A DNA stretch of 64,000 nucleotides from Brevinematales bacterium (lineage in GTDB: Bacteria > Spirochaetota > Brevinematia > Brevinematales > Thermospiraceae). The notes beneath the pieces were generated by a model that saw nothing but the letters and a program-made list of their open reading frames with translations, searched no databases and was not told where the DNA came from. The stretch is taken from NCBI GenBank assembly GCA_013177995.1, contig JABLXN010000008.1, positions 1 through 64,000 of the forward strand. The letters run 5' to 3'. The position numbers were made by a program, and so were the translations under genes. The first letter of the stretch is position 1. Every line of letters starts with the position of its first letter. Shown piece after piece: positions 45,126-61,781 of this stretch.

Positions 45126-45731
45126 TGTCGTTCCACATTTATCTCGAATGGTTGTTTTCACACAAAATTGAATACTTATTCAATCATCTTTTCTCTTTCA
45201 GTTTTGGATTCTTTTTGTTACCCATCTTTTTTCCACGAAGCGCTCCCGCGCGGGACAAAAGGGGCTTCGCCCCTTTTGAAAACCCCACCCCGCCCCTGCG
45301 GCAACAGGGAGCCAAGAAGCGCTTTGTCCTCGTCGCATGCTACGCATGCGCCTCGGACGGACCATGGGCCGCTTTTGCGGGCAAGAGAAAGACCTCTTCT
45401 CTCCAGGGGAAGTTCTTCCTCCGTGGGCGACCTTGCCTCGTCCCCAGGACTTCGGCAACCACACCTCGTCCTCCTGACTTCGGAAGAAGAGCGCCCACCT
45501 CGCTCCGCCGATTCCCCGCTCAGGCGGGGGCCCCGCGGCTCCGCTTCGGTGGGCTTGCGGGTAAAAGCAACACAAGAGGTCGCCACGGGTGCCTCCTGCA
45601 CCCTCACTCCGGAAGGACTTCCCCATTGGTAGTACAAAGACCCATCTTCAAAACCGCAAAAGCGGCCCGGCGGGTACTGAGCGAAGTCGAAGTGGGGTAC
45701 AGAAAAAAAGGGGGTGATAAAAGAACAGGGC
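45126..45731 (+). repeat. Damaged copy of the 600-bp GC-rich element
   Basis: The left end has TTTGTCGTTCCACAT followed by an AT-rich lead and then GC-rich DNA matching the complete copy at 52985-53581 over most of its length. Shared parts include the hairpin word CGCATGCTACGCATGCG, the pair GCCGCTTTTGCGG (45368-45380) and CCGCAAAAGCGGC (45654-45666), and a single CTGAGCGAAGTCGAAG unit. The right inverted end is missing after about 45731. Confidence 0.75.
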
Positions 45732-45819
45732 CTTCTGTCACCAGGTCCGCAGGGCACGTGTCACCCCGGGGCTTCTCCTACGGCGCACCGCAGGCAGGGG
45801 CGGGGCAGGGGCGTTCAGC

Positions 45820-45990
45820 CACAAGGGGGGCTTTCTGAGACCACAAACGTGGGGCTATAACCCTGTTTCAGCAAAACACCCCATGGCCATTGCTATCACC
45901 TTGTTTCAGCAAATACACCACCTGGTTAAACGTTTAACCTTTCTCTATAACCCCCCATGGCCATTGCTATTACTCTGTTTCAGCAAAAGC
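45820..45990 (-). repeat. Short-repeat cluster related to 29.85-30.02 kb
   Basis: Read on the minus strand it has three TTTGCTGAAACA-type words and a perfect 16-bp palindrome GGTTAAACGTTTAACC (45924-45939). The order and spacing match the plus strand at 29850-30020, so these are two copies of one composite segment. Confidence 0.7.
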
Positions 45991-46150
45991 CCCGCGGCTC
46001 CACTTCGGTGGGCTTGTGAGAAAAGCAACAAAAAACGTCGCCCCAGGTGCCTCCTGCATCCTCTCTTTGGAAGGACTTCCCCCTTACGACAAAGGGCACA
46101 CAACCGCAAAAGCGGTCTGGTGGGTACTGAGCGAAGTCGAAGTGGGGTAC
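45988..46150 (+). repeat. Partial copy of the right half of the 600-bp element
   Basis: From CCCCGCGGCTC to GTCGAAGTGGGGTAC it repeats 45531-45710 with scattered differences, including a CCGCAAAAGCGG word at 46104-46115 and a CTGAGCGAAGTCGAAG unit. It ends beside the hydA terminator. Confidence 0.7.
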
Positions 46151-46157
46151 TGAAAAA

Positions 46158-46186
46158 AAAGGGAGTGCCGAAACACTCCCTTTTTT
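46158..46186 (-). terminator. Terminator of the hydrogenase operon
   Basis: Stem GGGAGTG (46161-46167) and CACTCCC (46174-46180) around a 6-base loop, with T runs on both sides, so it could work in both directions. It starts just after the hydA stop. Confidence 0.88.
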
Positions 46187-51361: not shown

Positions 51362-52882
51362 TTATAATCTGAATATAATCTCCACGCCTCCCGTTATCCC
51401 CGTCGTCCCCAATTTCCCGTTCCAGTTCTGGAAGGTGGGCGTGACAGAAACCGATTCGGCACTTTCATCATCGCCACTTTCACGGAAGTACAGGCTTGCC
51501 ATCTGGTAGAAACTCCACTGGAAACCTCCAAAGAGACGAAGCTTCACCGTCTGGTTGAATTGGATATTCCAGGAGAGCTGGGGCAGAAGGGCAAAATCAA
51601 ACCAGTTAAGGGAGACACTTACAGGGGTGGCCAAATCCTTGCCCCCGATGGTGAGATAATCGAGGGTACTGGTGAGTTTGCCAAGTTCTTTGGCACCTAT
51701 GTTTGCGGCAAACTTGACACCAAAAACCACACTCGTATTTCGCATGTACCATTCATAGGCGGGGCCTATTTGCATGGAGATAAGCAAAGGATCAGAAAAA
51801 CCGATACCAAAGGCGGATTCCCAGAGCCAGCTGTATCCCATCTCTAGATCAAGATGCATGAAAAAGGCCAGAGCAAAACCATTCACCGATCCAAAAGAAA
51901 GGTTGGTATTGAGCGAAACGCTTCCAGATGAGTAGGTTAGTGTTGCCGTTGAAGGCACCTCCATAGGCAAAACGCCGAAAGAAAGACCAAACCTTCCCCC
52001 TGCTTTTGGAGCCTCTATCAGTTGTTGTCCCGGCTTGGGATTACCAAAGATGATATGCCCATAGGAATACTCGTCACTTACGTAACTCACCCGAATCAGT
52101 CCTGTGCGACGTTTCTCCTTGAAGCGGTCCATGATCTGGATCTCTTCCTCAATGGCAAACTCGTATCCGGGGCTGATACCTAAGTTTTTCCCCAGTTCAA
52201 GGTAGGCATAATCACCCTCTACCCGGAGAATAGCCGTTTTGATCTTGAACTCTTCTACATTCCGGAGATAATAGCCAAGTCCCCCTACGGCACTATTCAC
52301 GGCTTTTTGGTAAGCGTCATTCGGACTGAGTCTGGAGACACCTTCACCACTGTTGTCATAAGTAGAAAGAAGATTGCCAGCCGTATCGATAATCTTGATG
52401 GAGATATTGACCGTCGCGCGGTGTTCTTTGACAATCCTGATCTGATACCCACCACCCTGTTTGGCCTCTTTGATTTCAATATCGTAGGAACGGGAATCAT
52501 AGCCGTTGATAGACGGGATGAACACAAAGACAGAATTGACCAACCTCTCCATTTCGGCAGCCGGGATAACCGCTACCCCTAAATCCTCATCTCGATACTG
52601 GGGATTTTGAAGGGCAGCCTGTTTTTTGAGTTCCCTGATACGCTCAATGAAGCGCTGGGCTGTGGTCCCGTCAAGCCGGTATTGATAACCGATAACCTGA
52701 AAGCGTCTCATGGAAGCAATCGTGGCAATCATCTGATCGTCAAAATACATATACGCTGAACTGGGAAGATTGTATGAACTGTATACAGGCATCACGGCAA
52801 TTTCTTTCCTCTGAGAAACCTCGGCTGAAAATCCCAAAGAAAACATGACCACTCCTACCAACCATAGCCAGGATGAACGCAT
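51362..52882 (-). CDS. Exported protein: CsgG-like N-terminal part and outer-membrane barrel-like C-terminal part
   Basis: The 506-residue protein has a signal peptide ending near F-S-A-E (about residue 20). The following 280 residues resemble CsgG/GNA1162-type periplasmic proteins (RKEIAVMPVYSSYNLPSSAY, then FQVIGYQYRLDG). The C-terminal 200 residues have alternating aromatic and polar beta strands and end in ITGGVEIIFRL, with a phenylalanine two residues from the end region, as in outer-membrane barrels. ATG at 52882 has AAAGGAGG. Function unknown; a single transcription unit with its own terminator. Confidence 0.68.
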   Translation of the reverse strand: MRSSWLWLVGVVMFSLGFSAEVSQRKEIAVMPVYSSYNLPSSAYMYFDDQMIATIASMRRFQVIGYQYRLDGTTAQRFIERIRELKKQAALQNPQYRDEDLGVAVIPAAEMERLVNSVFVFIPSINGYDSRSYDIEIKEAKQGGGYQIRIVKEHRATVNISIKIIDTAGNLLSTYDNSGEGVSRLSPNDAYQKAVNSAVGGLGYYLRNVEEFKIKTAILRVEGDYAYLELGKNLGISPGYEFAIEEEIQIMDRFKEKRRTGLIRVSYVSDEYSYGHIIFGNPKPGQQLIEAPKAGGRFGLSFGVLPMEVPSTATLTYSSGSVSLNTNLSFGSVNGFALAFFMHLDLEMGYSWLWESAFGIGFSDPLLISMQIGPAYEWYMRNTSVVFGVKFAANIGAKELGKLTSTLDYLTIGGKDLATPVSVSLNWFDFALLPQLSWNIQFNQTVKLRLFGGFQWSFYQMASLYFRESGDDESAESVSVTPTFQNWNGKLGTTGITGGVEIIFRL

Positions 52883-52984
52883 AGATCCTCCTTTACTTTT
52901 GTTTTTCTCTTGAAAAAGTATATCATCAGAAGAGAAAAATTTCAATCAAAAAGAAAAGAGAATTGGGATATAGCTTGGTTTTTG

Positions 52985-53581
52985 TGTCGTTCCACATTCA
53001 TACAGAATGGTTATCTTCACACAAAAACTGAATACTCGTTTTACCATCTTTTCTCTTCTAAATTTTTAGCTCTTTTTGTTACCCATTTTTCTTTTTCCAC
53101 GAAGCGCTCCTGCGTGGAACAAAAGGGACGTTGTCCTCGTCGCATGCTACGCATGCGCCTCGGACGGATAGTGTGCCGCTTTTGCGGGCAAGGAGAAAAA
53201 CATCCTCTCCTTCCAGGGGAAGTCCTTCCTCCGTGGGCGACATTGCCTCGTCCTTGAGACTTCAGCAACCACAACTCGTCCTACTGAACCTTGCAGCCAA
53301 CTTTATAAACTTTACAAACTTTCAACTTTCAACTGATACGCACCCCACTCCGGAAGGACTTTCCCCTTACAACAAAGGACACACGACCGCAAAAGCGGCC
53401 CGGTGAGCCTCCTGAGCGAAGTCGAAGGAGAGCACTGAGCGAAGTCGAAGGAGAGCACTGAGCGAAGTCGAAGTGGGGTACAGAAAAAAGGGATTGAAAG
53501 AACAGAGATTTCTCGTGTTATTTCCCTGTTCATAAGAAATGTGGAAATAGGTATTAGTTTCATATGTGGAACGACACGACA
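52985..53581 (+). repeat. Complete copy of a 600-bp non-coding element with inverted ends
   Basis: The ends are inverted copies of TGTCGTTCCACAT (near 52985-52997 and 53564-53576). Just outside, GATATA(G/T)CTTGGTTTTTG occurs on both sides (52967-52984 and 53582-53599), 17 of 18 bases identical, like a target duplication. Inside are AT-rich arms, a GC-rich core with the hairpin word CGCATGCTACGCATGCG, inverted words GCCGCTTTTGCGG (53175-53187) and CCGCAAAAGCGGC (53387-53399), and a 23-bp tandem repeat. No protein is encoded. Broken relatives are at 45.1-46.2 kb. Confidence 0.75.
53412..53475 (+). repeat. Tandem repeat, 23-bp unit, about 2.8 copies
   Basis: Units CTGAGCGAAGTCGAAGGAGA plus GCA start at 53412, 53435 and 53458; the third is cut after GTCGAAG. 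Single units of the same word occur at 45678 and 46124. The core GAGCGAAGTCGAAG is a word I have seen dispersed in genomes of other phyla. Confidence 0.85.
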
Positions 53582-53607
53582 GATATATCTTGGTTTTTGA
53601 TTTTTGC

Positions 53608-53652: not shown

Positions 53653-54381
53653 ATGAGGAAATATCTTTGTGTTTTTCTTCTTGTGTGCCTCGCGGCATGT
53701 TCTACCGTTTTAGTGAAAAAAGAGACCATGGGACTCTCTGATTATGAAATTCTTTTGACCTTTGATGATGGTCCCAATCCCTTTCCCGGGACTACCGATG
53801 CCCTTTTGGAGGTTCTCAAAAAGTACAGTATTCGGGCCGTGTTTTGTTTAGTGGGAAAGGAGATGGCAAAATATCCTCATCTGGTAAAACGTATCCGTGA
53901 AGAAGGGCATGTCATTGTCAATCATAGCTACTCGCATATTCCCCGTCTTACCGCACGGGGAACTTCGCAGGAGATTGTCCTGTGGAACAGGGCCCTTTCT
54001 ATGGCTGTGGGGACGAATGCTTCTTCTCCCTGGTTTCGTCCTCCGGTGGGGCTGGTCTTCTGGTCTACACAGAAGGGGCTCTCTTCCTATGGGATAAGAA
54101 CTTTTGGGGTGAGTGTATTTGAGTTTGATAGTGAGTATCCTCCCGGGGAAAAAGAAAACCTGAAAAAGAGAATTATCCAGTCTTTAGAGAAACAAAAAGG
54201 AGGTGTTCTTGTTCTCCATGATGGGGTGCAACGCCTTTATTCTCTGAGAGAGGAGGACTTCACCAATAACCATATAGCGAATCGTTCTTTTGTCCCTTCT
54301 CTGGTAGAAGAACTTGTCCTTTATTTTCAAGCGAAGGGATATGTCTTCATTGATCCACAGGTTGTCATGGGAACACCATAA
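53653..54381 (+). CDS. Lipoprotein polysaccharide deacetylase (NodB domain)
   Basis: The 242-residue protein starts with a lipobox L-A-A-C (cysteine at about residue 16) and then a NodB domain: L-T-F-D-D-G-P-N-P with the metal and catalytic aspartates, N-H-S-Y-S-H with the two zinc histidines, R-P-P-V-G, and V-L-H-D-G-V near the end. It should remove acetyl groups from peptidoglycan or another glycan in the periplasm. ATG at 53653 has AAAGGGAAG upstream. A 200-bp element begins 8 bases after its stop; its 9-bp target duplication overlaps the stop codon. Confidence 0.88.
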   Translation: MRKYLCVFLLVCLAACSTVLVKKETMGLSDYEILLTFDDGPNPFPGTTDALLEVLKKYSIRAVFCLVGKEMAKYPHLVKRIREEGHVIVNHSYSHIPRLTARGTSQEIVLWNRALSMAVGTNASSPWFRPPVGLVFWSTQKGLSSYGIRTFGVSVFEFDSEYPPGEKENLKKRIIQSLEKQKGGVLVLHDGVQRLYSLREEDFTNNHIANRSFVPSLVEELVLYFQAKGYVFIDPQVVMGTP

Positions 54382-54388
54382 AATATTC

Positions 54389-54589
54389 GAGACCCTTGCA
54401 CGGGTGCTTTCTTGCCCTTTTTAGGTCAGGGGCTATGCCCCTCTTCCCCGTTTTTTCTGTTTACAGGGGCTTATTTGTCTTTTCTATTCAAAAAATAGGA
54501 TTATTGATTACGAAAAGAAATATTTTTATACTATTTTTGTTTTTTTTATTCCCTTTTTTGAGACCTTCGCACATTCGTGCGAAGGTCTC
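54389..54589 (+). mobile_element. 200-bp MITE-like element, copy 1, with 9-bp target duplication
   Basis: Begins GAGACCCTTGCACGGG and ends with the hairpin GAGACCTTCGCAC-ATTC-GTGCGAAGGTCTC, so the first bases and the last bases are inverted copies. AAAATATTC is present on both sides (54380-54388 and 54590-54598), a clean 9-bp target duplication. Inside are a GC hairpin TCAGGGGC-TAT-GCCCCTCT-like word and an AT-rich half. No coding capacity. Confidence 0.85.
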
Positions 54590-56774: not shown

Positions 56775-56976
56775 GAGACCCTTGCACGGATGTTTTCTTT
56801 GCCTGTCTGGGTCAGGGGCTACGCCCCTGAAACCCCGATTTTTCTGTTTACAAGGGCCGGTTTGTCTTTTTTATTCAAAAAAATTGGTTTATTTATTACA
56901 GCACGGAATATTTTGATACTAATTTTTGTTTCTTTATTACTTTTTTGAGACCTTTGCACATTCGTGCAAAGGTCTC
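56775..56976 (+). mobile_element. 200-bp MITE-like element, copy 2
   Basis: Same ends as copy 1: GAGACCCTTGCACGG at the left and GAGACCTTTGCAC-ATTC-GTGCAAAGGTCTC at the right, with the TCAGGGGC-TAC-GCCCCTGA hairpin. The flanks (TAAATTATC and TTTAGTGTG) do not match, so no target duplication is visible. Confidence 0.82.
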
Positions 56977-59484: not shown

Positions 59485-59684
59485 GAGACCCTTGCACGGG
59501 TGTTTTCTTCCCCTGTTTGGGTCAGGGGCTGCGCCCGTCTCCCCCGTTTTTTCTGTTACAAGGGCTTATTTGTCTTTTTTATTCAAAAAAATAGGATTAT
59601 TGATTACGAGAAGAAATATTTTTATACTATTTTTTGTTTTCTTATTACTTTTTCGAGACCTTCGCACATTCGTGCAAAGGTCTC
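59485..59684 (+). mobile_element. 200-bp MITE-like element, copy 3
   Basis: GAGACCCTTGCACGGG at the left, and GAGACCTTCGCAC-ATTC-GTGCAAAGGTCTC at the right with two mismatched stem positions. Flanks (TTTAGGTTT and GAAATCTTT) do not match. It borders the truncated SH3-like gene. Confidence 0.82.
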
Positions 59685-61153: not shown

Positions 61154-61781
61154 ATGTCTATATATGTTAATGTAGAAGATTTGTGTTATGAATCTGTGTT
61201 TCGTTCCTGCCAAATAGAAATCACGGGAAAATGTAATTTTCATTGCAAGCATTGTCGCGCGGCAGAAGATCCCTGCTCTCATATGGAGGAGGCCGTGTTT
61301 AAAAAAGCACTTGAATTTGCAGACCCCCAAGATGATTCATTTATTCTTGTTGTTTCTGGTGGAGAACCTTTTCTTCATCCGCTTTTGCCAAAATTACTTC
61401 ATATAGCTTCTGTAGATTTCGGAATAAAACGTATATGTGTAACGACAAATGGGTCTTGTTATGAAAAAAACCTTCTTGAGACAATAAAAGAAACGAGACC
61501 CTTGCACGGATGTTTTCTTCCCCTGTTTGGGTCAGGGGCTACGCCCCTGAAACCCCGCTTTTTCCATTTACAAGGGTTTATTTGTCTTTTTTTGTTCAAA
61601 GGAATAGTTTTATTTATTACGTTAAGGAACATTTTTATACTATTTTTTGTTTTTTACTACTTTTTTGAGACCTTTGCACATTCGTGCAAAGGTCTCAAAA
61701 CGATTATGCGGAGGTTGCAGAGCAAGGGCTTTTGCTTCTTCGGGTGATCTTTTGGGAGAAGATCCTCTATGCTGGAGGTGA
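61154..61781 (+). pseudogene. Radical SAM/SPASM gene, interrupted by a 200-bp element and missing its middle
   Basis: The 5' part (61154-61494, 113 residues) has the radical SAM motif CxxxCxxC (C27, C31, C34) and S-G-G-E-P-F. Copy 4 of the 200-bp element follows (61495-61696). In another frame after it, 61698-61781 reads [19 protein letters not shown] then G-E-D-P-L-C-W-R and stop, the end of a SPASM enzyme. About half the protein, between the two parts, is gone. The remnant lies between a 24-aa peptide gene and a MATE gene (5 bp on). Confidence 0.85.
61495..61696 (+). mobile_element. 200-bp MITE-like element, copy 4, inside the radical SAM gene
   Basis: GAGACCCTTGCACGGATG at the left, right hairpin GAGACCTTTGCAC-ATTC-GTGCAAAGGTCTC and internal TCAGGGGC-TAC-GCCCCTGA. 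The flanks (AAAAGAAAC and AAAACGATT) do not match as target duplications. Confidence 0.85.

Follow-up and report, generated by a model that had tools for sequence, protein, structure and literature searches.

A large MITE-like element of a Brevinematales bacterium and a resident IS1202-type insertion sequence as its probable mover

MITEs are usually under about 600 bp, and the REP/RAYT systems are known for many dispersed, strongly conserved imperfect hairpins. Among autonomous insertion sequences, those of the IS1202 family have TGT and ACA ends, a transposase of about 400 aa and a Q at E+7, according to the family account in PMC10132070, which also distinguishes a long-duplication group with duplications of 16-28 bp. 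The terminal inverted repeats of the family are imperfect and about 22-29 bp long, with 16/24 and 18/27 as examples in Table 7 of that paper, and a second repeat that binds the transposase lies inside each end; the same table gives ISTde1 of Treponema denticola a length of 1327 bp, a transposase of 394 aa and a 17-bp duplication. A bacterial MITE that has been assigned to a family of insertion sequences is MITEPye1 of Paracoccus yeei, which belongs with IS1182 and, in the account of PMC11578231, has 1-3 chromosomal copies.

We describe here an element in a stretch of 64,000 nucleotides from a Brevinematales bacterium; the whole of this stretch is called the window below. Judged from sequence, it is very probably a large MITE-like, non-autonomous element that is mobilised in trans by the transposase of a resident IS1202-type insertion sequence (IS), with a hairpin-bearing interior carried along. 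In the literature covered for a link between IS1202 and MITEs, which does not extend to the ISfinder listing, the sole bacterial case was PMC11578231 (IS1182), the rest being animal by title. As a probable partner of an IS1202-type IS with 18-bp duplications, itself non-autonomous and present in high copy, the element offers natural variants with which end recognition by a little-studied group of transposases can be tested.

The element, its copies and its target-site duplications

The window element is placed between two divergent genes and upstream of each (Table 1); the right-hand gene has a product that we take to resemble a polysaccharide deacetylase (motif TFDDGPN). Inside the element there are only short ORFs, which overlap one another on the two strands. 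The inverted ends and the long flanking direct repeats that a preliminary description had pointed out are both present, the former as a perfect match of 14 bp (52984-52997 and 53564-53577). Of the limits given there for the segment, 52985-53581, the left one stands; the right one had to be refined to 53576, with an extra CGACA left outside.

Table 1. Features of the window and their coordinates
Feature	Position	Strand	Remarks
Flanking gene, divergent	51362..52882	-	start placed by eye at an ATG with AGGAGG upstream; 51362-52945 in the ORF list
Target-site duplication, left copy, 18 bp	52967..52984	.	17/18 identical to 53582-53599
Putative non-autonomous element	52985..53576	+	TGTCG...CGACA, delimited at either end with a length of 592 bp; ends match those of the resident IS
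Element left end, reversed IS right end	52985..53035	+	blastn 81-83%, 53 columns, against the L069/L071 IS
Conserved hairpin	53133..53165	+	GTCC..CGCATGC-TAC-GCATGCG..GGAC; 21-mer at 37 places in the genome (33 without mismatch), control 0
Nested inverted words	53175..53399	+	arms 53175-53187 (GCCGCTTTTGCGG) / 53387-53399 (CCGCAAAAGCGGC) and 53216-53237 / 53344-53365; kept across copies
Three 23-bp tandem units	53412..53480	+	CTGAGCGAAGTCGAAG...; word present in at least seven further genomes of the phylum
Element right end, reversed IS left end	53537..53576	+	blastn 93-95%, 41 columns
Additional CGACA	53577..53581	+	repeats the element's final five bases; read from the sequence; sits before the right duplication
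Target-site duplication, right copy	53582..53599	.	GATATA[G/T]CTTGGTTTTTG on both sides
Flanking gene, divergent	53653..54381	+	ORF list
Second copy of the element	45126..46163	+	keeps an intact left end and two right-hand modules; has lost the right end
Second repeat, four copies	54389-54589, 56775-56976, 59485-59684, 61495-61696		ends GAGACC[C/T]TTGCAC, self-complementary right end

Rather than a single copy with flanks inside a longer tandem region, the genome holds many copies, and the flanks are target-site duplications. A genome-wide search gave at least 99 alignments of the window element (40 of the 122 first-look candidates scored), and the terminal 12-mer TGTCGTTCCACA occurs 108 times with no more than one mismatch, against 9 for the reversed control, all copy counts being lower bounds in a 57-contig draft. 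Thirty-two two-ended elements could be delimited: three, of 1365-1372 bp, carry the transposase gene, and 29 are without a matching one, a set that takes in one copy with an ISH6-type transposase gene inside (L074) and a 288-bp remnant (L077). For comparison with the MITE norm, the window copy measures 592 bp and 26 of the 29 non-autonomous copies 565-1307 bp. The copy at L074:310-2719 is interrupted by the ISH6-type gene, which encodes 410 aa. Two pairs of copies (L048/L042 and L064/L072) have one flank in common and the other flank different, which may reflect recombination between copies or an error of the draft assembly; the same applies to any flanks common to copies in an assembly of 57 contigs. 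Nearer to the window element, the damaged copies reported earlier at 45126-45731 and 45988-46150 are indeed related to it, but they are parts of one element and not two separate copies, since the whole of 45126-46163 can be aligned with C22a, a copy of 1307 bp (1079 columns, 77%).

A clear duplication (score of 12 or more) borders 15 of the 32 elements, 13 of the 29 non-autonomous ones and two of the three IS copies, and the same score was reached by 3 of 992 mismatched pairs of flanks from different elements. Eighteen base pairs is the length of 11 of the 15 clear duplications, and the mode in the IS and the non-autonomous elements alike. The duplications at the IS copies L069 and L070 agree at 18/18 positions, L069 being bordered by CATCTTTCTTTTCGTACC on either side; at the flanks of the third IS copy, L071, a duplication was sought and none was found. 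Half of the elements (16/32) have no duplication at a score of 6 or more, which is consistent with age, recombination or the draft state of the assembly. A retrotransposon-like, target-primed insertion was considered because the duplications first looked variable, and was rejected on the mode of 18 bp, which is common to the DDE insertion sequence.

The ends of the element are those of the resident IS, left-right reversed. The right end of the window element resembles the IS left end over 41 bp, and its left end resembles the IS right end over 53 bp (identities in Table 1); for the window copy this likeness stops after 41 and 53 columns. The IS body found a blastn match in none of the 29 elements, and the transposase found a tblastn match in none of them. 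That the element is simply the IS with an internal deletion was rejected, as beyond the ends there is nothing in common. It is the ends shared with the resident IS, the missing transposase gene and the same 18-bp duplication that lead to the reading of a non-autonomous element of IS1202 type; counted against it is the left end, whose likeness to the IS right end is no more than about 80%. The large non-autonomous mobile element of the preliminary description is borne out by these observations, and where no name could be given to it then, it can now be called the probable non-autonomous counterpart of an insertion sequence of IS1202 type in the same genome.

In the mechanism that we propose, the resident DDE transposase of IS1202 type would bind the element ends in trans and insert the element at a stagger of 18 bp. 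The interior, rich in GC and in hairpins, would travel as a passenger of the element, and its hairpins may be kept through selection or through copy-to-copy homogenisation. An empty site was sought in two congeners, which lack the neighbouring gene, and was not found. REP/RAYT was rejected as the mover: PF01797 (Y1 transposase) had 0 matches in the own genome, and 5 of 14 control genomes were positive.

The mosaic interior and its maintained hairpins

The inverted core words, the CGCATGC-TAC-GCATGCG hairpin and the tandem repeat that had been noted inside the window element are all there. The 26 elements of 565-1307 bp are mosaics built from AT-rich ends and from GC-rich blocks that vary in order and number among copies, and several copies (C35, C12b) are without the core. 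A well-kept part is the hairpin word TCGTCGCATGCTACGCATGCG: the four of its 37 occurrences that are not exact have one mismatch, none has two, and three further three-mismatch matches are hairpin copies read on the opposite strand. The 36-column hairpin block is off consensus at 3.7% per position (35 copies), next to 2.6% and 6.0% for the terminal 13 bp (27 elements), and the columns adjoining the block are off by 25-43%, a figure that indels inflate because the comparison was ungapped. In L066 and L135, a longer and perfect stem (GCATGCGACGAGGAC) has taken the place of the imperfect conserved hairpin, as would be expected if the template had been switched at a quasi-palindrome. A different palindrome, GGTTAAACGTTTAACC, which we presume to resemble a LacI-type operator, recurs within long copies (L127, L128, L133; C5, C21).

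Pairing was followed in two alignments, one of 22 copies and one of 14 copies of a single interior class; one long core (L045) of the 23 cores found was left out of the larger. The copies of both were picked by two helix words, and the alignments therefore favour helices. In the 14 copies, helix columns have a mean pairwise identity of 0.947 against 0.818 elsewhere, a difference reached by none of 353 slid masks; 98.1% of the helix cells pair, and there are 16 double-change cells against 0-2 in the slid controls. Compensatory changes occur in 4 of 57 pairs, mainly in one hairpin with the variants GGGTGC/GCACCC (12), GGGCAC/GTGCCC (4) and GGACAC/GTGTCC (3). What covariation is clear in the core lies in this hairpin; most long-range pairs are invariant. 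The departures from pairing comprise 6 G-U and 8 A-C cells, which indicates no strand preference. The interior hairpins are maintained; that RNA is produced from them does not follow.

A somewhat unlikely alternative is that the hairpins are DNA sites, for the transposase or for a nucleoid or replication protein, and are kept because they aid movement or tolerance. Departures without strand bias would suit such sites, as would a hairpin block that stays about as close to its consensus as the terminal 13 bp while its neighbours do not. However, the autonomous IS manages without the core, its body being matched by none of the 29 elements, and no known binding motif was recognised in the hairpins.

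The core was also found outside the TGTCG-ended elements, where it adjoins ends that belong to a second family of repeats, each about 200 bp long. The end word of that family, GAGACCCTTGCACGG, has 136 matches in the own genome and 0 in the control, and the copy at 54389-54589 has AAAATATTC on either side. Five cores (L127, L130, L131, L132 and L133) have one common junction, and L133 carries ends of the second family to its left and right. For the core at these places, the explanation that we prefer is recombination between GC-rich words that resemble each other. We think it improbable that the core, some 230-300 bp long and rich in hairpins and GC, is itself the selected unit, as RNA or as protein-bound DNA, riding two unrelated non-autonomous families of one bacterium with its 21-bp hairpin near-unchanged in 37 copies. 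If the core were functional, it would be a non-coding cargo common to two transposon families. The second repeat also occurs nested in TGTCG-ended copies, in L033 (reverse complement, element 82-287) and in L057 (element 727-930).

The suggestion in the preliminary description that the element possibly forms a structured RNA is met by helices that are kept across copies, but the window core folds like its shuffles (z -0.62), the element has no Rfam match at the gathering threshold, and the strand bias is missing. Folded as a whole, the element has z -4.5 and -3.8 on its two strands, and part of this comes from the inverted ends. A known RNA family was rejected, the two weak Rfam matches (E 1.7-1.8) being implausible. 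A structured RNA from the interior is possible. To go further and take the interior for a structured non-coding RNA gene, with the mobile element mainly its vehicle, seems to us distinctly improbable: the 21-mer in its 37 places, the conservation of helix columns above that of the slid masks, and the covarying hairpin with its double-change cells would speak for such a gene, and the shuffle-like fold, the lack of an Rfam match and of a strand preference, the mosaic interiors with copies that have no core, and the choice of the aligned copies by two helix words speak against it.

Occurrence beyond the own genome

The element has no match in either of two congeners, nor in the plasmids or phages that were searched; the hairpin word is absent from the viral contigs, and an element end pattern from a collection of genome contigs. 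In the same collection, the transposase gave 66 pattern matches, none of which was confirmed as a relative. In a set of 392 genomes of the phylum, the own genome among them, one other genome has the hairpin word at up to two mismatches, and the core was found by blastn in at least nine others (two candidates scored per genome). Seven of these nine match only at the CTGAGCGAAGTCGAAG region, one at the AACTTTATAAACTTT word and one at query positions 101-156. The CTGAGCGAAGTCGAAG word itself lies outside this element in at least seven other genomes of the phylum. Relatives of the transposase at E 1e-15 or better are present in three other of the 392 genomes, the best at 44% over 222 aa. A literature search with ACTGAGCGAAGTCGAAGT gave no match.

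The resident insertion sequence and its described relatives

The IS copy L069 is 1367 bp long and has an intact ORF for a 406-aa transposase, and L071 has an intact ORF for one of 404 aa. The best NCBIfam match of the transposase is ISNCY_2 at 2.2e-38, with 132 bits and below the cut-off of 250 bits. Both transposases have a Q at E+7 in IERKIQTFQ, the catalytic E being assigned by eye. All three IS copies have the outer ends TGT and ACA; the terminal inverted repeat is identical in 12 of its 13 outer bases and in 16/24 when compared ungapped, and a candidate second repeat (ATTTCCACAT or ATTTTCACAT) with 7-9/12 matches lies near base 29-31 of the ends. With its TGT...ACA ends, its duplication length, ISNCY_2 as the best match and the Q at E+7, the resident DDE insertion sequence fits, by these sequence features, the IS1202 family and within it the long-duplication (ISTde1-like) group. 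Ten draft contig ends break within IS copies, with ends 95-100% like those of L069, which suggests that the IS has been recently active.

IS481 duplications are shorter, and a mover of the IS481 family instead of IS1202 is highly improbable, even with an NCBIfam IS481 model that matches the transposase at 5.9e-34, close to the value for ISNCY_2. The 18-bp duplications and the Q at E+7 both agree with what PMC10132070 gives for the IS1202 family.

To return to the element as a non-autonomous partner of the IS, the REP/RAYT palindromes are like it in being many, dispersed and strongly conserved as imperfect hairpins, and unlike it in that the hairpins here lie inside DDE-type elements and a Y1 transposase was not found. 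The resident IS shares with ISTde1 and ISCARN63, as they are given in PMC10132070, the TGT/ACA ends, a size of about 1.3-1.4 kb, a transposase of about 400 aa, a duplication of 16-18 bp and the Q at E+7; within this range of duplications, Table 7 of that paper has 17 bp for both, whereas that of the resident IS is 18 bp. The window element differs from both in having no transposase gene and another interior. MITEPye1, as described in PMC11578231, is similar in that its terminal inverted repeats resemble the ones of an IS family resident in its host; it too has direct repeats, a folded interior and no transposase gene. However, MITEPye1 is of IS1182 type and present in 1-3 copies, whereas the element here would be of IS1202 type, is present in high copy, measures mostly 565-1307 bp and has a mosaic, GC-rich interior.
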